Of a DNA stretch of 20,193 nucleotides, positions 1 to 10,950 are shown one piece after another. Position numbers and translations under genes: made by a program. This DNA comes from Lachnospiraceae bacterium (GTDB lineage Bacteria > Bacillota > Clostridia > Lachnospirales > Lachnospiraceae). Under the pieces are notes generated by a model. The model made no database searches, was not told where the DNA came from, and saw only the letters and a list, made by a program, of their open reading frames with translations. The stretch is taken from NCBI GenBank assembly GCA_020860745.1, contig JAJBTR010000312.1:1-20193 (forward strand), given 5' to 3'. Position 1 is the stretch's first letter, and each line of letters begins with the position of its first letter.

Positions 1-10
1 TGCTCTATGA

Positions 11-16
11 TATAAT
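11..16 (+). promoter_or_regulatory. possible -10 element for the left LysR gene
   Basis: A TATAAT hexamer lies about 95 nt before the LysR start in very AT-rich DNA. Its -35 would fall outside the window, so the promoter cannot be confirmed. Confidence 0.25.
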
Positions 17-110
17 TCAAATTAGTGTTTTTAATAGATGCATAATTTAAATTTATGATAGGAATTTATAAAAAAATCTTCCTGTCATTTGCCACTCAGA
101 GGAGAATGCC

Positions 111-997
111 ATGATCTGCAATCTGGAATACTACCGTACATTTTTTATGACAGCAAATTTTCTCAGCTTTACGAAAGCGGCCGACCAGCTTTGCCTGACA
201 CAACCAGCCGTCAGCCAATCGGTAAAAAACTGGAAGCTGAATTGGGTTGTAATCTGTTTACCCGATCCTCCCACGGGCTGGAGTTGACAAAAGAAGGGAC
301 TGTTTTATATGAACATGTAAAAAAAGCCTTTGCGGAATTACAGACTGGCGAAAGGCAATTAAACAATATGACTGATTTAAAGATGGGAGAATTAAAAATC
401 GGAGCCACGGAGACTTCCCTGCACTTATTTTTAGCAGCGAAACTCCCGGAGATTCGGCAGAGATTTCCGAAAATATCCATCTCCTTTGCCGGTTCCACCA
501 TCCGGGATACCTGCCAGAAACTGCAGTCTGGAGAAATCGAGGCGGCTTTTCTGATCTCTCCAATCCCTTCGGAATTTCAATTTCAGCTTACGAATATCGG
601 CTCCGTTCAGGATGTTCCTGTAGCCGGACCATCTTTTCCCATGGACTTCAAAACAACCTACACCCCGTTAGAACTGACCTCCTACCCCCTGATCGGCGTG
701 GAGGAAGGAAACAGCGTCCGAGACTATATTGAACAGTGGTTCCTGGAATACAATGTGTTGTTCACCCCGGAATTTACGGTGCGAAGCACCGGGCTCGTAC
801 TCCCACTTGTGGAACAGAATCTCGGCATCGGAATTTTGCCCGAGAATTTTGTAGACAAAAAAATAGCAGACGGCGAGTTAAAGCAGATTAAAACCCAGAC
901 TGCGATCAAGCCGCGCACTCTGTATCTGGCTATCAATCCGCTTCAACCCGTGTCTGCCATTTGTCATCAGTTTCTGGAACTATTTCAAGCTATGTAA
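111..997 (+). pseudogene. LysR-family transcriptional regulator, reading frame broken near the N-terminus
   Basis: This is a LysR-type regulator of about 295 residues once the frame is repaired. The ATG at 111 is chosen because AGAGGAG (98-104) lies 6 nt upstream and its frame opens with a textbook LysR winged HTH (NLEYYRTFF, FTKAADQL, LTQPAVSQSVK). That frame runs into the A6 tract at 224-229 and stops at 285-287. The rest of the protein (KLEAELG, LFTRSSHGLELTKEG, then the effector domain to 997) lies in the -1 frame. One extra A, or a -1 slip on A_AAA_AAC at 224-230, joins the halves exactly. A TTG at 89 would open the downstream frame but would lack the HTH, so it is not the natural start. 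The target genes are not evident and may lie left of the window. Confidence 0.85.
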
Positions 998-1693: not shown

Positions 1694-3376
1694 TTATATA
1701 AATTCTATCTCTTTAAATATCACGCTTCCGTTCACGGCTTCCACCGTGACTACCACGCGCTCCCCGGCGTTGGCAGTTCCCACATCCAGCGGTTCCGGCT
1801 TTTCACCCGCCGGCACGCCGCCCTCGTAGAGGACTATTCCGTCTGCGGACACGCGAATTTTCGCCCCTGCCGCCCCGCAGATCTGTAATCTCACCGGAAC
1901 CTCTTTTTCCGCCTCGCGTACCGAGTAGGACGCCGCGTCGCCCTCATCCAGCTGCAGCCAGATGTGCGGCCAGTCGCCGTACTTGACCGGATTGGGATTC
2001 ATCATTGCCAGACCGCCCAGATCGTTGGGTACATACCCCGGCTCATAGACCAGGTGCATCCGGTCCTCCCGGCGGAATCCGCAGAAAAGCGCGTAAGGCC
2101 ATGAACCTCTGTGTTCGCTGTCGGTATCGTAAGCGGAGGCAGGCACACAGATTCCCGGTCTCCGCAGCATGACCGCCACACGGTCTTTCTGCTCCGTGCA
2201 GTTTTCAAAGCGGATGTTTTCCAGAAGCTCATCAAAAATGGCGATCGCCTTCGCGTAACCGGGCTTCGCCCCGCCTTTCTGACAGTAATCTACCACCTGC
2301 TGCCACCCCTGCGGCTCCGGTCCCGCAAAGGAAAATGTGTATGCCGCGTCCACACCGTCCAGCGCCTTGGCGCACCAGATATTATAGCTGATATGGTACT
2401 CCATAAGCGACTCGAAAAACGCCGCCATCCAGGCATTGCCCGCGGCCGGATTTTTCGGGTCGCTGCCGCCGCACTCCCCCATCCAGACCGGCACATTCCG
2501 CTCCTCGCTCTTCGCCAGAATCGGCCCGAACAACGCCAGATCCGGGAATGTCTCGTAGCAGTGCGTGGTGATTGCCCAGTTGTGATACTCCGGGTCATAA
2601 TCGTGATCAAAAATATCCAGCCTGCCCGCAAACCGGTTTCCCTGGATAAACAGAATATGCCGCTGATCCACCGCACGGATGGCGGTTACCAGGCGGTCAT
2701 AAAACTTCTTTAACTCCGGCACCAGATAGTCAAACATCGGCAATGCAATCGGCTCATTTAAGAGATCATACCCGGCAATGATCCAGCGGTCCGCCCAACG
2801 GGCTGCCAGTTCTTCCCACAGCCTGACGGTCCGGTCCGCTCCCTCCTCATCCAGGAACAGGTGCGGCTGATTATCCACGCCATTGTCACAGGAAACCGCG
2901 CTCTGTCCGGCGCAGGCCGCATGCAGATCTATAATCACATAAAGCCCATATTGCTCACAGAGGTCCAGATAGTGATCCAGCATGGCCAGATGCTCTTCAT
3001 TAAATTGATAGCCTGGCTCCTCCCTCAGAATCAGGCGCGCGTCCAGCGGCAGGCGGACAGAATTAAATCCCTGATCCTTCATCGCCCGGATATCTTCCTC
3101 CGCGAAGTAGCGCTTCTCCCACTCACTCCAGAATTTCTTCTGATAGGACGGGCCACAGAGCTCCGTGATAAACTGATCCATGGTACGGCCCCGGTCAAAT
3201 TCAGCGGAGCGGGCAAAACGTCCCATCACACCGCCGAACGGCGCTCCTCCGAATAAAAACCCCTCCGGGTTCAGCCAGTTTGCGACACCCATGCCGCGCA
3301 GCAGAACTTCCTGCCCTTCCTCATTGACAAAAATGCGGCCGCTGGTCTTCAGCCAGCCCTTTACTGTCTGGTACAT
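1694..3376 (-). CDS. glycoside hydrolase family 5-type glycosidase, cytoplasmic
   Basis: This 560-residue protein probably hydrolyses a beta-glucosidic linkage by the retaining GH5 mechanism. The start at 3376 (MYQTVKGW) follows AAAGGGGAG by 6 nt; an upstream in-frame ATG at 3400 lacks a site. It has an (alpha/beta)8 barrel over about residues 10-400: SVRLP near 105-110, IIDLHAA near 148-154, the acid/base Glu208 in DLLNEP, His272/Tyr274 in HCYE, and the nucleophile Glu301 in WMGECGG. A C-terminal beta-sandwich-like region of about 140 residues follows. There is no signal peptide, so it should act on imported oligosaccharides or glycosides. It is last in a same-strand row with the SGNH hydrolase, permease and tannase, but has its own probable promoter. 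The exact substrate and GH5 subfamily are unknown. Confidence 0.88.
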   Translation of the reverse strand: MYQTVKGWLKTSGRIFVNEEGQEVLLRGMGVANWLNPEGFLFGGAPFGGVMGRFARSAEFDRGRTMDQFITELCGPSYQKKFWSEWEKRYFAEEDIRAMKDQGFNSVRLPLDARLILREEPGYQFNEEHLAMLDHYLDLCEQYGLYVIIDLHAACAGQSAVSCDNGVDNQPHLFLDEEGADRTVRLWEELAARWADRWIIAGYDLLNEPIALPMFDYLVPELKKFYDRLVTAIRAVDQRHILFIQGNRFAGRLDIFDHDYDPEYHNWAITTHCYETFPDLALFGPILAKSEERNVPVWMGECGGSDPKNPAAGNAWMAAFFESLMEYHISYNIWCAKALDGVDAAYTFSFAGPEPQGWQQVVDYCQKGGAKPGYAKAIAIFDELLENIRFENCTEQKDRVAVMLRRPGICVPASAYDTDSEHRGSWPYALFCGFRREDRMHLVYEPGYVPNDLGGLAMMNPNPVKYGDWPHIWLQLDEGDAASYSVREAEKEVPVRLQICGAAGAKIRVSADGIVLYEGGVPAGEKPEPLDVGTANAGERVVVTVEAVNGSVIFKEIEFI

Positions 3377-3536
3377 AGTAAACTCCCCTTTTCTTTCCAT
3401 TCGTTTTTCTGCTCCGTGTTTTTAATCTGTGTATCATGAATCTGTGATGCATGATCGCATTTCGCCGCTCATGATATCTTAATTTCATCACGATCCAATT
3501 CAGACATATTATTCCGAACACATCAACATCACTTCC

Positions 3537-3643: not shown

Positions 3644-4306
3644 TCACAGATACTTTTTCAGATTTTCCAGCACCACTCGGTACCCGTTCGCATACATATG
3701 CACGCCCTCGATGGTGTACTCCGCTTTCAGCATGCCCCGCTCATCCCTCAGGCCATCGTTCACATCGATATAATGATACCCAAGCTTCCCGGCAAGCTGT
3801 TCCACGGCGGCATTCGCTTTCGGGAGATTCTGATTGTTCCGATTGGCAAACATCGTCTTCGCCCACTCTCCGGCGACAGGCTTGTCTGTCTCATTCACCG
3901 GGTAATAAGCCATCAGATAGACTTCCGTTTCCGGCAAACACTCTTTGATCCGCGTGAGGATTTCCTCGTAGTTCCGCAGCATATCGGCAAGCACTTCCTC
4001 AAACTTTCGTGTTGCGTCGGAAATATCATTTGTACCAATGTTGATAAAGATGCGGGATGGCTCCGTGCCGAAGACCTGTTCTTCCATATTCTGCAGCATA
4101 TCCGCGGTTGTAAAGCCGCCCACGCCGCGGTTATAAATGATCTGCGTCATGCCGGCATCCATCAGAAGCTCCTGAATCGGAAACTGCTCCATCAGAGAAG
4201 AGCCTGTAAATAGCGTCTCCCCCTTTCTCGCGGTTTCATTCAGAATCCGGTATCTCTCAATTTTCTGTGCCTGCTCCATTTTCATGTAATCCAGAATCGG
4301 GTCCAT
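3644..4306 (-). CDS. SGNH/GDSL-family hydrolase (probable esterase)
   Basis: This 220-residue cytoplasmic hydrolase has the SGNH blocks in order: block I FTGSSLM with nucleophile Ser37, block II NRGVGG near 59-64, block III GTND at 91-94 with oxyanion Asn93, and block V EGVHMYANGY with His203. The residue three before the catalytic His is Glu200 where Asp is commoner. TAAGGAGGATACAT directly before the ATG makes the start secure. Families of this kind remove acyl or acetyl groups from sugars and other small esters. It lies 115 nt after the permease gene and before the GH5 gene, so deacylation of a plant glycoside fits the context but is not proven. No signal peptide is visible. Confidence 0.85.
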   Translation of the reverse strand: MDPILDYMKMEQAQKIERYRILNETARKGETLFTGSSLMEQFPIQELLMDAGMTQIIYNRGVGGFTTADMLQNMEEQVFGTEPSRIFINIGTNDISDATRKFEEVLADMLRNYEEILTRIKECLPETEVYLMAYYPVNETDKPVAGEWAKTMFANRNNQNLPKANAAVEQLAGKLGYHYIDVNDGLRDERGMLKAEYTIEGVHMYANGYRVVLENLKKYL

Positions 4307-4421: not shown

Positions 4422-5336
4422 TCAAAGCACATAATTTGCAATCCCGATCACCAGCGGCATGGTCAAAATACTGAATAAGGTGGTCACACAAACCTCTCTG
4501 ACTGCCTGCGTATAATCAGCGTGATACAACTGTGCAAAAATTGCCACATTGGATCCAATCGGAGCCGCCGCCGCGATCAGTATCGTGAATTTTAATGTCT
4601 CATACTTATCCGGAAAAGGCATCAGAATTAATATCGTCAACAGCGGAATTACCAGCAGCCGGATCAATGCACTGCGATACACCATCTTATCCGTGAATAA
4701 TGTGTGAAGCTGACACTGCGCCAGATAGGTGCCCAGAACAATCATGGCCAGCGGTCCGTTCATAGAAGCAACCGTGCCAATCACGCCGGAGATTGCATCC
4801 GGAAGCGATACCGGCAGCACAAACAGAACGATTCCAATCACGAAGCTGATAAGAATGGGGTTGGTTGCAATTTTTTTCGGCGAAATCGTGCTCCTGTCGC
4901 CGCTCATGGTGACAACGCCGTAAGTCCACTGCAGGATATTGAGCAGAGCAACAAAGGATGCGATATAAAAAACAGCTTCGCTGCCCAGCGTCATCTGCAC
5001 CAGGGGAATTCCGATAAATCCGGCATTGGAAAACGCCGTGCCAAACCGCTCAATCCCATATTCTCTGGAGAATGTGAGACGGCTGACCACAATCGCCAGC
5101 AGCAGTGCGAGAAGAGCCGCCAGGAAAGAAACCGCCAGCCCCTCCAGTTTTTCTATGGAAAACTCTTCCAGGCAGGAATTTATGATCGCACAGGGCATGA
5201 CGATATAGAGCAGCATCCGTCCGATATCTGCGCTCCCCTGCGTTCCCACCAGCTTTTTCTTAAAAAGAAAATAGCCGACGATCAGGTATATCATCATGAT
5301 CAGATTCTGTTTTAACAAGAGCAATGTAATAGACAT
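4422..5336 (-). CDS. AEC (auxin efflux carrier) family permease
   Basis: This 304-residue integral membrane protein has about ten hydrophobic segments in two halves and the family signature NAGFIGIPLV in the first half, with SNVAIFAQLY in the second. AEC members move organic acids such as malate and other carboxylates. The frame stays open upstream to 5564, but the hydrophobic N-terminus MSITLLLLKQN at 5336 fits the family and follows a purine-rich AAGGA/GGAGG region. The gene directly follows the tannase gene on the same strand, with a terminator-like hairpin in between. From context it may import gallate or galloyl compounds, or export pyrogallol. In Lactiplantibacillus plantarum a permease gene (gacP) also accompanies the gallate genes; I cannot say whether it is the same family. 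An A7 run in this gene is in frame. Confidence 0.85.
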   Translation of the reverse strand: MSITLLLLKQNLIMMIYLIVGYFLFKKKLVGTQGSADIGRMLLYIVMPCAIINSCLEEFSIEKLEGLAVSFLAALLALLLAIVVSRLTFSREYGIERFGTAFSNAGFIGIPLVQMTLGSEAVFYIASFVALLNILQWTYGVVTMSGDRSTISPKKIATNPILISFVIGIVLFVLPVSLPDAISGVIGTVASMNGPLAMIVLGTYLAQCQLHTLFTDKMVYRSALIRLLVIPLLTILILMPFPDKYETLKFTILIAAAAPIGSNVAIFAQLYHADYTQAVREVCVTTLFSILTMPLVIGIANYVL

Positions 5337-5365
5337 GGATTCCTTATTCCTCCGCTTTATTAGAG

Positions 5366-5400
5366 ATAAAAAGCCCGATCTCAAACATGTATCGGGCTTC
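5366..5400 (-). terminator. rho-independent terminator after the tannase gene, or attenuator before the permease
   Basis: A perfect 9-bp inverted repeat (AAGCCCGAT at 5371-5379 and ATCGGGCTT at 5391-5399, 11-nt loop) is followed on the minus strand by TTTTTATC. It lies 43 nt past the tannase stop and only about 30 nt before the permease start, so it also forms part of the permease leader. Confidence 0.7.
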
Positions 5401-5442
5401 TCATTTTGTATGTTTTTTATCTTATCACAATTGACAGGTATT

Positions 5443-6861
5443 TTAAATACCCAAATCAGCCCACTTGCAGATCCCATCGATCCAGGCGAACAACTCATCC
5501 AGGTCATAATCCCCGGAATGCGGCGTGTCCCACGGAGAATGGTAATCCACCGGGTAACCGGCATTGCGCAGCTTCAGCGTGAGCATTGCAGAAATCGCCA
5601 GGGAGGAATCCCTGTCGCACTCACCGTGGCGGATCCGCCAGTGCGGCGCCTTTGTCGCCCGCTTGTCGTCAATATAGTACATCGGGTTCATCAGCTTCAC
5701 AATCTGCCCGTCTGCTCTCTTGCCGCCCACCAGGCTGTTTTCATAACTGTATGCGGTAAAGTGGCGGCAATCCTCGGTCTCCGTTCCGAAGAGATCGTTC
5801 TCCGGGCTGTCCATGGTCAGGTCGTCAAATGCCGGAGCAGTCTTCATCCTGGTGATGTCGCGGACATAAGCGTCAAAATCCATGGCGACTGCTTTTCCGT
5901 TCTTTGTCGTCAGCCAGGCCTTTTCAGAAACGTCCACACCGCTGTCCATCGCACGCTGCGCGGAGGCAAGGACAACGCTAATCATATAATTCTTAAAGGA
6001 TCCGTTCCCGTCCGCATCCAGAGTCAGCAGATTGCCATCCTCATCCTTTAATTCCAGACTGTTGAGGTAACCGGTGAACAGCTTAGCCTCCTCCCCGGAA
6101 GCCTTGATCTGAACCTCACTCATGACGCCATCGTCCGGGGAGAAAGACGGGCGTCCGCCTTCATCCATAGACATGTTCATGCGGTGATAATCGTTAACTC
6201 CCTGAAACTCCCACTCATAAGCAGTATCCGCATGATCCAGATTCGTGATCGGACAGTAACAGGACGCCGCGAAGATATCGTCCCGCGCATCCGCCGCACC
6301 TGCCTCTTTCAGATATACCTCATAGTCCGGATGGTTGCCTGTCGCTCCGACCACGGAAGAGATCGCGCCGCCGGCGCTGGTGCCGTTGGTGATGATTTTT
6401 TCCTGGTCGCCCGGAAGTTTATCGCTGAAATAGTGCAGGTAGCGCACCGCCGCCTTGTAGTCCGTGATCACCGCCGGAGCTTTACCGACATTTTTCCCGT
6501 CTGCATCTTTCAGACATCTGCCGCGCAGAGCCGGCGTCGCCACTACGTAACCGTGTGCCAGCGCATAAAAAGCGGAGTTCAGCCGTTTCGGCCCCCAGAC
6601 TTCGTATCCCGGGTTGTTCTGCTCGCCCGGCATATAGCCGCCCACCAGGTTCGGCATAAAGGTCGGTGCAGTCTCCATTGTGTAGCCATTGATGTTTTTT
6701 CCCTCATAGTAGTCCAGCGGGACAAAAATATTCATCTGCTGATGCTCCGCGTCCTTCGGATTCTCCACATACATCAGGTGGCGGAACGCGCGGAAACGGA
6801 TGGTAATTCCCTCCAGCGTCAGTTCCTCGTCGGTATAATTATTTTCATCAAATTTCAACAT
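5443..6861 (-). CDS. tanB: subtype-B bacterial tannase (tannin acyl hydrolase)
   Basis: This 472-residue alpha/beta hydrolase should cleave galloyl ester bonds in gallotannins and simple gallate esters, releasing gallic acid (EC 3.1.1.20). It resembles the 469-residue L. plantarum tannase along its whole length: NIFVPLDYYEG, APTFMPNLVGGYMPG, ITNGTSAGG, CPITNLDHADTAYEW, HWRIRHG and TPHSGDYDLDELFAWIDG. The triad is read as Ser162 (GTSAG), Asp416 and His448; the Asp-His spacing of 32 equals that of the L. plantarum Asp419/His451 pair. No signal peptide is visible, so it is intracellular. An AGGAG site lies 8 nt before the ATG. It follows the gallate decarboxylase gene on the same strand with a 186-nt gap and ends at a good terminator. 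Confidence 0.92.
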   Translation of the reverse strand: MLKFDENNYTDEELTLEGITIRFRAFRHLMYVENPKDAEHQQMNIFVPLDYYEGKNINGYTMETAPTFMPNLVGGYMPGEQNNPGYEVWGPKRLNSAFYALAHGYVVATPALRGRCLKDADGKNVGKAPAVITDYKAAVRYLHYFSDKLPGDQEKIITNGTSAGGAISSVVGATGNHPDYEVYLKEAGAADARDDIFAASCYCPITNLDHADTAYEWEFQGVNDYHRMNMSMDEGGRPSFSPDDGVMSEVQIKASGEEAKLFTGYLNSLELKDEDGNLLTLDADGNGSFKNYMISVVLASAQRAMDSGVDVSEKAWLTTKNGKAVAMDFDAYVRDITRMKTAPAFDDLTMDSPENDLFGTETEDCRHFTAYSYENSLVGGKRADGQIVKLMNPMYYIDDKRATKAPHWRIRHGECDRDSSLAISAMLTLKLRNAGYPVDYHSPWDTPHSGDYDLDELFAWIDGICKWADLGI

Positions 6862-7047
6862 GCTCTTCTCCTCGTCTTTTCTCAGATTTATTTCATGCTC
6901 TTCTCATGTTTTTCCTGCCCTGACTGTCACATAGGCTCATCAGAATTCTTTGCTGCGTCCAGTATCAAATAGTCATACGGTTTTCCACTGGTCTTCATTC
7001 TGGAATTCATACTCCCCACTCCTGTTCCCTGCATAAACCGAGACTTT

Positions 7048-8517
7048 TCAATCCCGCAGCCACCTCTCCGCATCCACTTCCATAAATTTCGCCCGCTTAA
7101 ACCGGTCTTTCTGATCGAACGGTACGGTACAGTCAAAAATTGCCTTGCACGCATTGCCTCTCACGCGCAGATTGTACGAGTACTCCGGACCGTTGGACGG
7201 ATCCAGCGGATGACACTGCACGCCCGGAATCGTGATCAGGTCCATATCTGCCTGAAACCGTGTGGTCATCGCCCACATGACATCGTTGATATCAAAAATA
7301 TCCACATCCTCGTCCACCAGAATCACATGCTTCAGCTCCGCAAAAGCGGAAAAAGCCAAAAGCGCCGCCTGCCGCTGCCGTCCCTCATCGGAGGGCACTG
7401 ATTTTTTAAACTGCATGATGGTCACATACTTGCCGCCGCCAAAGGAAGCGTTGTACACATTCAGGCATTTGCCGGGCATGGCCTTGTCCACCATCGCCAG
7501 AATGCTCGCCTCCGTGGGAATCCCCGCCATGGAAACATGCTCCTCAGACGGTCCGATACAGGTCTGCATGATCGGGTGTTTCCGGGTCGTCACCGCTTTG
7601 ACTTTAATCACCGGCAGCTCCGGATTCGCCGGACCGTTGTATCCCGGAAACTCCGGCATGGCCTTTCCGGTGTTGGAATTTTTGTCCTCCCGCATCCGCA
7701 CGCCGGGCAGGACCTCACCTTCGATGACATATTCCGCATTGGCGATCGCACGCTCATGGATCGTCAGACACTTCACCAGCTCCACCGGTTTTTTCCGAAT
7801 GGCTCCCGCAGCCTGCAGCTCATCATAGCCTAACGGCGTTGTGGGCGGTTCAAAGCAGGATGCAATCTCAATCGCCGGGTCCACGCCGATGGAAACGGAA
7901 ATCGGCAACGGTTCGCCTCTCTGCTCCGCCAACTCAAAAAAGTGCCCGATATGCCGTGCTCCCGGCTGGAAAAAGATGGAAATCTCATCCTTACTCTGCA
8001 GGCACATCCGGTGAATCGTCACATCGGAAGTCCCCGTCTCCGGGCTGGTCGCATAGCACATCCCCATCGTAATGTACGGGCCGGCATCCTCCGGCGTATT
8101 TGTCGGCGCAGGAACCAGTTTCCGGATGTCAAAATCCGGATCTGTCGCCAGATGCACTACCTCCTGGCACTTCGCCTGCTCCCGCGGAATCTCCACCGGC
8201 TTCACCGGGTGCTGCACACTGTCTTTCAGCAAAAAACCAAGCTTTTTCGGATCGCAGTCCAGCAGTGCCCCGACACGCCTGCGGCTAGCCAGCAAACCAA
8301 TCACCACGCTGGCATCCGGATGCCCCTTCACATTGTGAAAGACCATGGCAGGCCCCTCTTTGGTCGGGCGCATCACCGTGCCGCCCGCTCCCACGTGACG
8401 GTAAACCCCGGAGATTTCCGCCATCGGGTCGACTTCCACATCCGTCTCCGCAAGCTGCCCCGGAATTGTCCGCAGAAAATCCAGGGCACTTCTCAGATCA
8501 ATTACGTTATTAGCCAT
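7048..8517 (-). CDS. lpdC: UbiD-family gallate decarboxylase, catalytic subunit
   Basis: This 489-residue protein should decarboxylate gallate (and perhaps protocatechuate) to pyrogallol (or catechol) non-oxidatively, using prenylated FMN. Length and sequence match the L. plantarum LpdC type (490 residues): SDVTIHRMCLQSKDEIS around 164-180, ARHIGHF 187-193, SIGVDPAIEIASCFEPPTTPLGYDE 209-233, AEYVIEGEV 261-269, MPEFPGY, CIGPSEEHVSMAGIPTEASIL and a C-terminal DCTVPFDQK. The TIHR Arg and the IEGE acidic cluster correspond to conserved UbiD active-site positions. AAGGAGAGG precedes the ATG. It is divergent from the LysR regulator and heads the run towards the tannase. Other hydroxybenzoate-decarboxylating UbiDs are the main alternative, but tannase and LpdB/LpdD neighbours favour gallate. 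Confidence 0.92.
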   Translation of the reverse strand: MANNVIDLRSALDFLRTIPGQLAETDVEVDPMAEISGVYRHVGAGGTVMRPTKEGPAMVFHNVKGHPDASVVIGLLASRRRVGALLDCDPKKLGFLLKDSVQHPVKPVEIPREQAKCQEVVHLATDPDFDIRKLVPAPTNTPEDAGPYITMGMCYATSPETGTSDVTIHRMCLQSKDEISIFFQPGARHIGHFFELAEQRGEPLPISVSIGVDPAIEIASCFEPPTTPLGYDELQAAGAIRKKPVELVKCLTIHERAIANAEYVIEGEVLPGVRMREDKNSNTGKAMPEFPGYNGPANPELPVIKVKAVTTRKHPIMQTCIGPSEEHVSMAGIPTEASILAMVDKAMPGKCLNVYNASFGGGKYVTIMQFKKSVPSDEGRQRQAALLAFSAFAELKHVILVDEDVDIFDINDVMWAMTTRFQADMDLITIPGVQCHPLDPSNGPEYSYNLRVRGNACKAIFDCTVPFDQKDRFKRAKFMEVDAERWLRD

Positions 8518-8541
8518 AATTTTCCCTCTCCTTATTCTCTT

Positions 8542-8547
8542 ATTATA
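8542..8547 (-). promoter_or_regulatory. -10 element of the lpdC promoter, no good -35
   Basis: TATAAT on the minus strand lies about 25 nt before the lpdC start. At 16-18 nt spacing the -35 position reads only ACCTGG-like sequence. A strong -10 with no -35 is typical of an activator-dependent promoter, which agrees with the divergent LysR gene. Confidence 0.55.
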
Positions 8548-8626
8548 CTAATTGTTTACTTTTTCCAGGTCACCCACTACTTTTAGCAAGCGCAGTTAGC
8601 ACTTAGTTTGTCGAAGCGTTGCCCCG

Positions 8627-8644
8627 GTTGTCTGAAACGATAAC
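8627..8644. promoter_or_regulatory. candidate LysR operator dyad between lpdC and the regulator
   Basis: GTTGTC, six bases, then GATAAC form an imperfect inverted repeat (5 of 6 positions) near the middle of the 258-bp divergent gap. LysR regulators usually bind such dyads. It sits about 100 bp from either predicted transcription start, further than usual, so the call is tentative. Confidence 0.3.
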
Positions 8645-8712
8645 ATCGGCATCTTCCGCACCCGCCAAAAAGGCACCTCAATTATTTTTCTTAAAGTATA
8701 AAATTTTTCCCC

Positions 8713-8741
8713 TTGTACATCAATTCTGCTTTCGCTATAAT
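8713..8741 (+). promoter_or_regulatory. sigma-A promoter of the divergent LysR gene
   Basis: TTGTAC (8713-8718) and TATAAT (8736-8741) are separated by exactly 17 nt, with a predicted start near 8748 and the LysR ATG at 8776. Confidence 0.7.
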
Positions 8742-8775
8742 AGATTCCAGGATGGAATGAAAAGAGGATACAGAC

Positions 8776-9659
8776 ATGACATTTGACCAGCTGGACTATT
8801 TTATCGCGGCGGTAAAGGAAACCACATTTTTTGATGCGGCGGAGTCTCTGCACATGACCCAGTCCGCTCTCTCCAAACAGATCATGAAACTGGAGTGGGA
8901 GCTGGATCTGACCCTCTTTGACCGCAGCGGCCGCTCTGCTCGTCTCACCGAAGCCGGGCAGCTTTTTTTGAGGAGGCTCAGACTCTCTCCGCCCAATACC
9001 GGCAGGCCATGCTTCACATGCAGCAATACCGGGATCAGACCCGCCAGCAGCTGCGCGTTGGCACACTGCCCATCCTGTCACAATATGGCCTGACCTCTTT
9101 GTTTCGCAAATTTTCGGAACAGTATCCTCAGATCATCCTCTCTCTCGATGAAGTAGAGGAAAACGAGCTTATGCATGGACTGGATCACGGAATTTATGAC
9201 ATTGTCATCGCGCGCAATTCCATGTTCTCCCCGGAAAAATATCAGACTGCTCTTCTGTCAGAGGACAGACTTGCCGCCATTTTTCCGGTTTTCCACCCTC
9301 TCGCTGACAGGGAAGTGGTAACTCTGGAGAATCTCGCGGAAGAACGTTTCATTTTAATGAAACCGTACACCTCCATCTATCAGTTATGCATGAAATTATT
9401 CGCTAATTCCGACATACGACCAAATATCCTGCGTACCGCTCGCATGGAATCGATTCTCGGGGCTGTCGCCGCCGGAGAAGGCATCAGCCTGCTTCCGGAA
9501 AAAAATTTCCAGCTCTTTTCCCATGCATCACTGACCGCCGTTCCTCTCTTCTCCGCGCCTACGCTCTCCGTTGTCGCCGCACGAAAAAAAGCTGCCCCTG
9601 CCTCCGCGGGAACAGCCCAATTCTGGAATGATATCTCATCGCCGGTCCAACGGCAATAG
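8776..9659 (+). pseudogene. LysR-family regulator in the TanR position, frame broken at a T7 run
   Basis: When repaired this is a 294-residue LysR regulator. Its ATG follows AGAGGA by 7 nt and opens a canonical HTH (MTFDQLDYFIAAVKE, FFDAAESLHMTQSALSKQIMKLE, LFDRSGRSARLTEAG). At the T7 run 8963-8969 the frame shifts; frame 0 ends at 9093 after 105 residues. The linker helix and effector domain (EEAQTLSAQYRQAMLHMQQ, then LRVGTLPILSQYGL, YDIVIARN, GEGISLLPE) continue in the -1 frame to 9659. One extra T, or a -1 slip on T_TTT_TTG (8964-8970), rejoins it. Its divergent placement next to lpdC and tanB matches TanR, the LysR activator of L. plantarum tannin genes, so it is the likely inducer-responsive switch. 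If the break is real, only an HTH fragment is made. Confidence 0.85.
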
Positions 9660-9703
9660 TTTTACGGAACTATATCTCACCACCGGTCCAACGGCAATAA
9701 TTT
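9631..9703. repeat. imperfect 32-bp direct repeat at the convergent ends of the LysR gene and lpdB
   Basis: Positions 9631-9662 and 9672-9703 match at 29 of 32 bases, 41 bp apart. The first copy encodes the LysR C-terminus (SSPVQRQ); the second, read on the other strand, encodes the lpdB C-terminus (CRWTGGEI). Confidence 0.8.
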
Positions 9704-10248
9704 TCAGCCTCCACACCAAACGGTTCCACCAGCTTTGCTGCCATGTGATAAACCATATCTTCCATATTTTCCGGCTGATGGTAAAACGTCATCATCGGCG
9801 GAATAATGCGCACGCCCGGCAGCAGCGAAAGTTCATACAGATTCTTCAGGTGAATGGCAGACAACGGCGTCTCCCGCGCCGCAAGCACCAAAGTGCGCTG
9901 TTCTTTTATCGTCACATCCGCCGCCCGCAGAATCAGATCTTCCGCGTAGCCGCTGTGAATCCCGGCCACAGTTTTCATACTGCAGGGCACAATCAGTATC
10001 CCTTCCGTCCGGAATGTGCCGCTGGCCGGCCCCGCCCAGATTTCATCCGGCTGATACACAAAGTCCGCATATTCTCCCAGCTCCTCCGCCGTAAGTCCGG
10101 TCTCATGCACCATCGTCAGCTTTGCGCTGCCACTTACAATCAGATGCACCTCCAGGCTCCCGTCCTGACGGAGCAGTTTCAATACTGCCTCTAATATGGG
10201 AAATCCGCTGGCTCCGGTGGCCGCCACAATGATCCGCTTTTTCTTCAT
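9670..10248 (-). CDS. lpdB: UbiX-like flavin prenyltransferase (LpdB)
   Basis: This 192-residue enzyme should make prenylated FMN from FMN and dimethylallyl phosphate, the cofactor needed by the UbiD-type decarboxylase. It shows the GASG flavin loop (12-15) and the family core VPCSMKTVAGIHSGYAEDL, RAADV, KEQR, LVLAARETPLSAIHL and a late FYHQPENMEDMV. The first ATG at 10254 abuts the AGGAG sequence with no spacing, so the second ATG at 10248 (MKKKRIIVAA), 6 nt from it, is the better start. The gene is convergent with the LysR regulator (10-bp gap) and has its own -10 hexamer. In L. plantarum lpdB is distant from lpdC; here both lie in one locus. Confidence 0.92.
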   Translation of the reverse strand: MKKKRIIVAATGASGFPILEAVLKLLRQDGSLEVHLIVSGSAKLTMVHETGLTAEELGEYADFVYQPDEIWAGPASGTFRTEGILIVPCSMKTVAGIHSGYAEDLILRAADVTIKEQRTLVLAARETPLSAIHLKNLYELSLLPGVRIIPPMMTFYHQPENMEDMVYHMAAKLVEPFGVEAENYCRWTGGEI

Positions 10249-10313
10249 AGCCATCTCCTGTCACACAGACCGGGAACTTTTTGCAGGCTTCTTTTCAGTA
10301 AACAATACTTACG

Positions 10314-10369
10314 ATTATATTCCTCTCATATAATGATAAAACAAAAGCCCCGGTTTCGTTCATCGCAAC
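10314..10369 (-). promoter_or_regulatory. lpdB promoter with possible LysR site
   Basis: TATAAT on the minus strand (10319-10314) has no good -35. About 54 bp upstream of the predicted start lies GTTGCGATGAACGAAAC (10369-10353), a GTT..AAC dyad-like sequence resembling the one beside lpdC (shared TGAA(A)CGA and AAC). The rest of the 303-bp gap to lpdD shows only a weak GATTCC/GGAATC hairpin (10434-10450) and no gene. Confidence 0.35.
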
Positions 10370-10551
10370 TCTTTTCACTCAGATTATTTTACCTTCTGTC
10401 CTCGCTGCAATCAATTCTTTTCCAGGCAAGACTGATTCCAAACCGGAATCCTGCTGCAGTTAACAAATGAAAAATAACGGAATCCTATGATAGCTATAAA
10501 TCAAAATCCCTTACAAATGATAAAACCCACGGATTGTTCCATAAAGCATCA

Positions 10552-10950
10552 TCATGCTGTATATAAATTCGTCAGCTGCGGGATCAGTTCCTCCGCCACC
10601 ACCCGCTTTATTTCTGTGATCTGATCTTCCTGCAGATGATCCTCATGGAATCCGCCGACACACACCACAAGACACTGGTATGCCCGGCAGACTGCCTCCG
10701 CCAGAACCCGGCAGATCTCCTCATCCTTGTGTCCGATTACGTTGATCACCGAAGAGGTAGCGCTGGCTGTCCTATCTCCCGAAAGAGACAGTCGCGGCAC
10801 ACTCATCACCACGCAGCCAATATGAGGATCTGTCCCGCCGGTCAGAAGCAGATGCATATCTTTTCCCACGCGCTCCATGCGAACCTCAATGTCTGCGCCG
10901 GATGAGAGACTTTTTCGAATGTTTTTTACAATACATGTTTTCTCCGACAT
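10552..10950 (-). CDS. lpdD: LpdD-like gallate decarboxylase accessory protein
   Basis: This 132-residue soluble protein matches the small LpdD protein that accompanies gallate decarboxylases. Landmarks are LLLTGGTDPHIGCVV (35-48), the Ser/Thr-rich stretch TASATSSVINVIGHKDEEI (61-79) and CVGGFHEDHL (97-106); His43, His74, His102 and His105 stand out. GAAAGGAGAA precedes the start. In L. plantarum LpdD sits next to LpdB and is not itself the catalytic subunit; its molecular role is not settled as far as I know, and a prenyl-FMN handling or chaperone role is an inference. It is on the same strand as lpdB, 303 bp upstream, and may have its own promoter. Confidence 0.88.
   Translation of the reverse strand: MSEKTCIVKNIRKSLSSGADIEVRMERVGKDMHLLLTGGTDPHIGCVVMSVPRLSLSGDRTASATSSVINVIGHKDEEICRVLAEAVCRAYQCLVVCVGGFHEDHLQEDQITEIKRVVAEELIPQLTNLYTA

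Follow-up and report, generated by a model that had tools for sequence, protein, structure and literature searches.

We analysed a stretch of DNA of 20,193 nucleotides (called the window here) from Lachnospiraceae bacterium (GenBank assembly GCA_020860745.1, contig JAJBTR010000312.1). It comprises the first 20,193 of the 20,514 bases of this contig (C146) in a draft genome of 3.10 Mb that is 91.9% complete. The window contains an island of genes for a tannase and for a UbiD-type decarboxylase with its partners. On the minus strand, lpdD, lpdB (encoding UbiX), lpdC (encoding UbiD) and tanB are followed by an AEC-family permease gene and the genes of a GDSL esterase and a GH5 hydrolase; between lpdC and lpdB, the opposite strand carries a lysR gene that is divergent from lpdC (Table 1). 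Housekeeping genes make up the other flank (a SpoU methylase, two phosphofructokinases, an aldolase and DNA polymerase III alpha). The closest named tanB matches, 93 and 91% identical, are in loci L024 and L023 of two Clostridiales metagenome-assembled genomes (MAGs) from the same genus as the window genome, which we call the sister species. The tannase and decarboxylase island is real and of a known kind, and a shared operator ties it to similar loci in other genera.

The initial annotation had named the four genes tanB, lpdC, lpdB and lpdD, and the scores against family and domain profiles bear these identities out. TanB scored 638 bits against NF041556 (cut-off 300). In an 18-row alignment that included the tannase structures of Lactobacillus plantarum, Clostridium butyricum and F. 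nucleatum (3wa6, 7q6y and 6yq4), its residues S162, K340, E354, D416, D418 and H448 were invariant. They correspond to S175, K365, E379, D439, D441 and H471 of CbTan2 (numbering checked on 7q6y), whose roles in the triad and the gallate site have been described (PMC8958541; this and the other papers are cited from excerpts). In TanB the triad consists of the GXSXG serine S162, D416 and H448, and the gallate site of K340, E354 and D418. When its grouping was checked against non-tannase esterases, TanB clustered with the characterised subtype B tannases: it fell inside a 32-row group with the three reference tannases in a 38-row tree, outside of which lay the 580-aa tannases of congeners and a lipoprotein from contig C69 (a quick tree, supported by the Shimodaira–Hasegawa-like approximate likelihood ratio test (SH-aLRT) only, with no bootstrap, some very long branches and a root on a very long branch). 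We regard the assignment as a predicted subtype B tannase as firm.

The best match of the window UbiD among solved structures was AroY, with similarity over the full length (5ny5, 643 bits; 5o3m, 615 bits). Over 34 UbiD rows, the two AroY sequences included, 145 columns were invariant, among them R170, E289 and K363, which we take to be the catalytic positions of UbiD. A lysine base is mentioned for the UbiD class (PMC6644310). Alike in these respects, the window enzyme and AroY differ systematically at 28 positions, which set the AroY pair apart from the other 32 rows. In a 34-row UbiD tree without LpdC and SgdC, the window UbiD grouped with those of L023 and L024 (support 100/99). We place it in the AroY/LpdC class, with gallate, by context, as the likeliest substrate. 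The partner genes for UbiX and LpdD are present beside it. LpdD scored 101.5 bits against PF21758 (cut-off 27, E 3e-29) and matched the LpdD structure 8p4w weakly (E 0.0017). Its H43 and H74, invariant in 12 rows, aligned with the metal ligands H35 and H61, and D76, which corresponds to the metal-site residue D63, was D in 9 and E in 3 of the 12 rows (metal site H35/H61/D63 from PMC10865409). The enzymes had also been called intracellular, and in agreement with this a simple hydropathy scan revealed no hydrophobic N-terminus.

The lysR-lpdC intergenic region, which the sister species conserve, contains a 39-bp element, TTCCA-N3-TGGAA-N3-ATTATA-N9-GAATTGAT, which is found before the UbiD gene and again before the UbiX gene. 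The block recurs with constant spacing in seven loci of several genera, with variation at some positions. Within it fall a T-N11-A palindrome and, with promoter-like hexamers on either strand, the -10 of lysR and the -35 of lpdC. When up to 3 mismatches were allowed, the copy before lpdC was the one match in the window (chance expectation 0.02). The 5-5-5 palindrome alone occurred in 7 to 25% of shuffled intergenic regions and, because it is not rare, we put the weight on the whole block. The copy before lpdB differs at 5 of the 25 specified bases and is followed by TTGATT-17-TAAAAT; the orthologous place in the sister species also carries a site (L024:6432, score 20.1). The distance to a TTGAT -35 hexamer is identical for the two window copies.

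From the seven LysR-UbiD intergenic sites (the three from the genus of the window weighted as one) we derived a position weight matrix (PWM) and ran it on 155 sequences with 1,885,541 bases. At a score of 20 or more, a cut that was set post hoc, there were 19 sites in all and 12 beyond the training set, against none in three first-order simulated passes. All 12 precede UbiD, tanB, UbiX or the carrier of a second tannase-UbiD locus, in a sample that was fetched mostly for tanB or UbiD and is thus biased to such neighbours. They stand before UbiD (L152, L155, L149 and L136), before an LpdD-UbiD set (L137) and a UbiX-UbiD pair (L157), before tanB (L043 and L051), before UbiX (the second window copy and its counterpart in L024) and before the GPH carrier gene that opens the second tannase locus in congeners (L181 and L182). 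The sites are nevertheless intergenic and immediately upstream of these genes. Scores from 14 to 20 were reached by 8 sites (∼1.7 expected by chance at 14 or more), 5 before tanB, UbiD or a carrier (L088, L052, L059, L090 and L058) and 3 elsewhere (L056, L093 and L061). A count with the consensus over all sequences of the analysis agrees: up to 6 mismatches in 25 gave 37 matches, repeated loci included, versus 0 for the reversed pattern; 7 mismatches gave 23 versus 4, and 8 gave 98 versus 50. UbiD loci without the element exist, e.g. L028 and L029 of Parablautia. Among the matches listed in the open-licence literature, neither the operator nor a gallate LysR regulon was found described in the titles and abstract openings. 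The block appears to be a new shared control element that seemingly switches such islands on in several gut bacteria. On this basis we predict that tannin use falls under a single LysR regulon across several genera.

Table 1. Features of the island and its neighbourhood (window positions)
Feature	Position	Strand	Evidence
tanB, subtype B tannase, 472 aa	5443..6861	-	NCBIfam NF041556
lpdC-like UbiD decarboxylase, 489 aa	7048..8517	-	PF01977, PF20696, PF20695 (all three Pfam UbiD domains)
Putative LysR-type operator (T-N11-A palindrome) with overlapping divergent lysR/lpdC promoters	8719..8757	-	Aligned in 7 loci
LysR-type regulator, frame broken near 8965	8776..9659	+	LysR_substrate domain in 9009-9659; N-terminal half in another frame
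lpdB, UbiX flavin prenyltransferase, 194 aa	9670..10254	-	TIGR00421, 192 bits vs 108.9; PDB 1sbz, 174 bits
Second operator/promoter copy, before lpdB (UbiX)	10410..10448	-	PWM score 24.2, outside training set
lpdD homologue, prFMNH2-chaperone type, 132 aa	10552..10950	-	PF21758 (PAC_bac)
Intrinsic terminator after tanB	5366..5404	-	Stem-loop and T run
AEC-family permease, neighbour, unit membership doubtful	4422..5336	-	PF03547, 84 bits vs 25.7; 304 aa from ATG 5336
GDSL esterase, neighbour	3644..4306	-	PF13472; no hydrophobic N-terminus (hydropathy)
GH5 glycoside hydrolase, neighbour	1694..3400	-	PF00150; PDB 9ku5, 105 bits; no hydrophobic N-terminus (hydropathy)

We then considered how widely tanB and the decarboxylase genes occur together. 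The best 80 of 316 confirmed tanB relatives in genome contigs were taken as tanB loci, and UbiD was counted as present at ≥60% identity over ≥100 aa (in L051 as two pieces). UbiD was present in 18 of the 80 loci, UbiX in 19, LpdD in 17 and all three in 14. Where the flanks were complete (43 loci), 13 had UbiD and 10 all three genes. The tanB-UbiD loci include Parablautia, Fusicatenibacter, Mediterraneibacter, Faecalicatena, Eisenbergiella, Erysipelotrichaceae MAGs and a soil Bacillota MAG. Across 150 Lachnospiraceae genera, tanB was found over the cut-off in 7 and this UbiD in 15; both were present in 5, compared to 0.7 expected (Fisher p = 9.5e-5), and in 4 of 149 when the window genome was left out (p = 6.8e-4). 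The two genes share a contig in 4 of these 5 genomes and are ∼185 kb apart in the fifth (G046). The clustering of tanB with UbiD is beyond chance. A 395-genome class sample around an Erysipelotrichaceae genome yielded tanB in 3 genomes (E 1e-60) and UbiD in 5 (E 1e-100), and a search by 16S signature gave 0 of 198.

We interpret the island, with a probability of about 0.75, as a route by which galloyl esters are broken down in the cytoplasm under the control of a single LysR switch. As to substrate, reaction products, inducer and binding, we infer the following course. A galloyl ester would enter the cell and be hydrolysed by TanB to gallate; LpdB would make prenylated flavin mononucleotide, LpdD would help to load it, and the UbiD enzyme (LpdC) would convert gallate to pyrogallol. 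LysR, probably sensing gallate or a close phenol, would bind the T-N11-A palindrome between lysR and lpdC and also the second copy of the element before lpdB. Since both copies are at the same spacing from the -35 hexamer, LysR would turn on lpdC-tanB and lpdB together.

Several observations weigh against this interpretation. No carrier is assigned to the entry of the galloyl ester. No such UbiD is seen in 62 of the 80 tanB loci (many contigs are short) or in 30 of the 43 with full flanks. The window UbiD stays below the cut-off of the NCBIfam model VdcC, hydroxyarylic acid decarboxylase subunit C (461 vs 650 bits; an 'exception'-type model), and the tanB-linked UbiDs do not form one clade, at least 4 changes being forced by well-supported branches. 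Given this scatter over the tree, gallate cannot be singled out from the phylogeny of UbiD alone. The LpdD paper recalls earlier work in which LpdD had little or no role in gallate decarboxylation (PMC10865409). Finally, the divergent LysR gene of the initial annotation was confirmed with a correction: in the window assembly its two halves are in different frames, with the break in a T run near position 8965. The break may thus have disabled the switch in this genome, or it may stem from a sequencing error.

The broken regulator, together with a second LysR gene at the contig start that is likewise split, could mean that the whole island is decaying or silent in this organism. We consider this very unlikely, as all four enzyme and chaperone frames are open and the tested active-site residues are kept. 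The lysR of the island is open in both sister species (over 292 and 298 aa in L023 and L024), and the positions of the two breaks would suit an assembly error, as that of the island lysR falls in a T run and that of the second gene lies near an A run, a short distance from the contig end. A different objection concerns the substrate: UbiD may act mainly on protocatechuate, forming catechol, with the tannase freeing both protocatechuate and gallate and with pyrogallol as a side product. The closest solved structures are indeed protocatechuate decarboxylases, and protocatechuate esters are also cut by tannases (PMC8276758). Relatives that are ∼70% identical to the window UbiD sit outside tannase contexts, for instance in Peribacillus ∼4 kb from a catechol-type dioxygenase gene and in Sporomusa among acyl-CoA genes. 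EcAroY decarboxylates gallate as well as protocatechuate, and for LpdC the best substrate listed is gallate (PMC6644310), so that the class allows either acid. However, given the 28 positions that distinguish the AroY pair and the linkage of UbiD to tannase that recurs in several genera, protocatechuate as the main substrate seems unlikely to us.

The AEC permease, which had been counted as the transporter of the island, is present as claimed but lies outside the interval 5443..10950 that was given for it, and its place in the same unit as tanB-lpd is weak. A 51-nt stretch in the gap between tanB and the AEC gene (5360-5410) folds at -20.2 kcal/mol (z -6.2), indicating a strong terminator, and neither pattern nor matrix scans found an operator copy before the AEC gene. 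Owing to the terminator and the missing operator we set the permease aside as an operon member. By blastp, a close homologue was present in 1 of the 80 tanB loci (the sister species L024) and a distant one in L031 (32% over 116 aa, ∼5 kb from tanB), with none in the other 78; here distant AECs may have escaped notice, and short contigs limit the count, L023 stopping directly after tanB. The order in L024 is tanB, GH5, AEC, GDSL, compared to tanB, AEC, GDSL, GH5 in the window, with no run of unknown bases there; the AEC gene adjoins the GDSL gene in L024 as well, and the terminator was not seen in L024 by eye. Within 10 kb of similar loci we found other carriers: sugar-binding-type ABC (L028, with the same gene clusters in L029 and L053), TRAP (L055), MFS_2/GPH (L088, with the same cluster in L089) and DASS/CitMHS (L060). 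In L030, L044, L049 and L090 there were no carriers among the subset of neighbours scanned. AEC is thus a candidate only. It could still be a gallate/pyrogallol exchanger, with uptake and decarboxylation driving a proton motive force as proposed for L. plantarum, where lpdC has a carrier gene as its neighbour and the metabolism of gallate generates a membrane potential (PMC4600210). That the gene stays near tanB in the sister species despite the reordering would fit such a role; the terminator, the absent operator, the rarity of homologues and the carriers of other families elsewhere make it doubtful.

UbiD of this class was found in 15 of 20 genomes of the genus, and four congeners carry it at a second type of locus (L181, G161:C85; L182, G162:C139; L183, G164:C5; L184, G163:C282), together with a second tannase of ∼580 aa, a GH65-type protein and a GH3, the last cut at the contig start in L184. 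Families were assigned by Pfam or NCBIfam in one or two of these loci and by blastp at ≥73% identity in the rest. Both of the ∼580-aa tannases that were tested exceeded the subtype B cut-off (342 and 348 bits). A GPH carrier and a BD-FAE-type esterase are encoded in L181-L183 (in L183 the carrier frame is shorter), and a beta-phosphoglucomutase in L181 and L183. The GPH carrier comes first, after the LysR element, in L181 and L182, and genome G162 carries both locus types. This gene content suggests the import of intact galloyl glycosides, their de-esterification in the cytoplasm and phosphorolysis by the putative GH65 phosphorylase; L181-L184 are likely a galloyl-glycoside utilisation locus. 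Other tannase-like genes were seen in the genus. The window genome itself encodes an 831-aa lipoprotein-like tannase relative with GGSGGG replacing GTSAGG (L127:159-2654, G000:C69), which we rejected as an extracellular tannase (121 and 115 bits vs cut-offs of 550 and 300), and two congeners (L113 in G153, L114 in G166) have open frames of >1000 aa with repeated tannase-like regions.

The window genome also encodes, on contig C283 (G000:C283, L143), a bis-molybdopterin guanine dinucleotide (bis-MGD) enzyme with an iron-sulphur protein and AsrA- and AsrB-type partners. Among solved structures it is nearest to acetylene hydratase, as are catechol dehydroxylases (PMC7028382). Homologues that are 67-68% identical lie divergently beside UbiD in L179 (G166:C16) and L180 (G167:C1), along with a DASS/CitMHS (citrate/sulfate-type) carrier, UbiX, a MerR regulator and an LpdD-like protein, and there the molybdenum enzyme is a candidate for reductive dehydroxylation of a phenol. 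The C283-type gene occurs in 16 of the 20 genomes of the genus, several of them without a tannase match, and for this reason we rejected it as an island-specific partner and keep it as no more than a lead. At least 1056 close relatives were found at E 1e-60 among the candidates scored; because the gene is common in the genus and its relatives are numerous, a role in pyrogallol metabolism is speculative. Identity as a pyrogallol-phloroglucinol transhydroxylase was also rejected, as the best structural match was acetylene hydratase and no transhydroxylase name appeared in 52 rows at E ≤1e-10. A far-reaching reading would join these parts: one LysR regulon with the 39-bp element would control galloyl-ester use across Lachnospiraceae and beyond; in the genus of the window it would govern at least two different tannase-decarboxylase loci, the tanB island and the locus with GPH, esterase, GH3, tannase, GH65 and UbiD that would import galloyl glycosides and cleave the sugar by phosphorolysis; and pyrogallol might be reduced further by the NAD(P)H-linked molybdenum enzyme whose homologue is divergent beside UbiD in two congeners. 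Taken as a whole, we think this quite unlikely.

Some further features of the window and its relatives were recorded. A tandem repeat of two 39-nt copies, 87% alike, occupies positions 9625-9704 at the convergent ends of lysR and lpdB, and no Rfam family matched over threshold. The second LysR gene (1-997, plus strand) is in two frames, split near the A run, and only its 3' half aligns in L024. In L024 a run of unknown bases (5818-5917) lies beside an inverted, truncated lpdD, an inversion that may be a scaffolding artefact.

In our reading of the literature, the range of gut bacteria that convert dietary tannins to gallate and pyrogallol, and their means of tannin uptake, are less well mapped outside lactic acid bacteria and streptococci. 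The enzymes of the island are expected ones, and the operator is the useful part, as it offers a sequence test for tannases, decarboxylases and carriers that would belong to one response. So far the operator favours a carrier of the sugar type (GPH) before a tannase operon and speaks against the adjoining AEC permease. With it, the regulator and its inducer can be tested directly in genera that grow in culture, such as Fusicatenibacter and Faecalicatena.

Tannase and decarboxylase genes are known together from other bacteria, and predictions of gallate decarboxylase exist for Blautia, Dorea and Anaerostipes (PMC8276758). A search of plasmids returned 30 records, none from Lactobacillus. A plasmid of Escherichia albertii (L141, NZ_CP117592.1, 73791-79088) carries another tannase-decarboxylase set, a row of genes for UbiD, UbiX, DUF554, isopentenyl-diphosphate isomerase and a tannase/feruloyl esterase, in which one gene may supply the prenyl donor. 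In Clostridium butyricum the gene of the tannase CbTan1 likewise lies near a putative gallate decarboxylase gene, but CbTan1 is of subtype A with a predicted signal peptide; the best match of the window tannase is CbTan2 (7q6y), whose gene is described without such neighbours (PMC8958541). L. plantarum WCFS1 has the same enzymes and an intracellular TanB, but there lpdBD are >1 Mb from lpdC, and the carrier next to lpdC bears the name of an ion transporter rather than of an AEC permease (PMC4600210, PMC4218992). The initial annotation had presented the compact tanB and lpdBCD island as novel, whereas tanB with clustered decarboxylase genes was already published in 2014 for Streptococcus gallolyticus, a gut bacterium of herbivores in which the set is induced by methyl gallate (PMC4218992). 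The tanB-sgdCBD set of that species, compared by description only, is like the window in having a subtype B tannase near all three decarboxylase genes, and the window differs from it by the lysR between lpdC and lpdB and by the copied operator.

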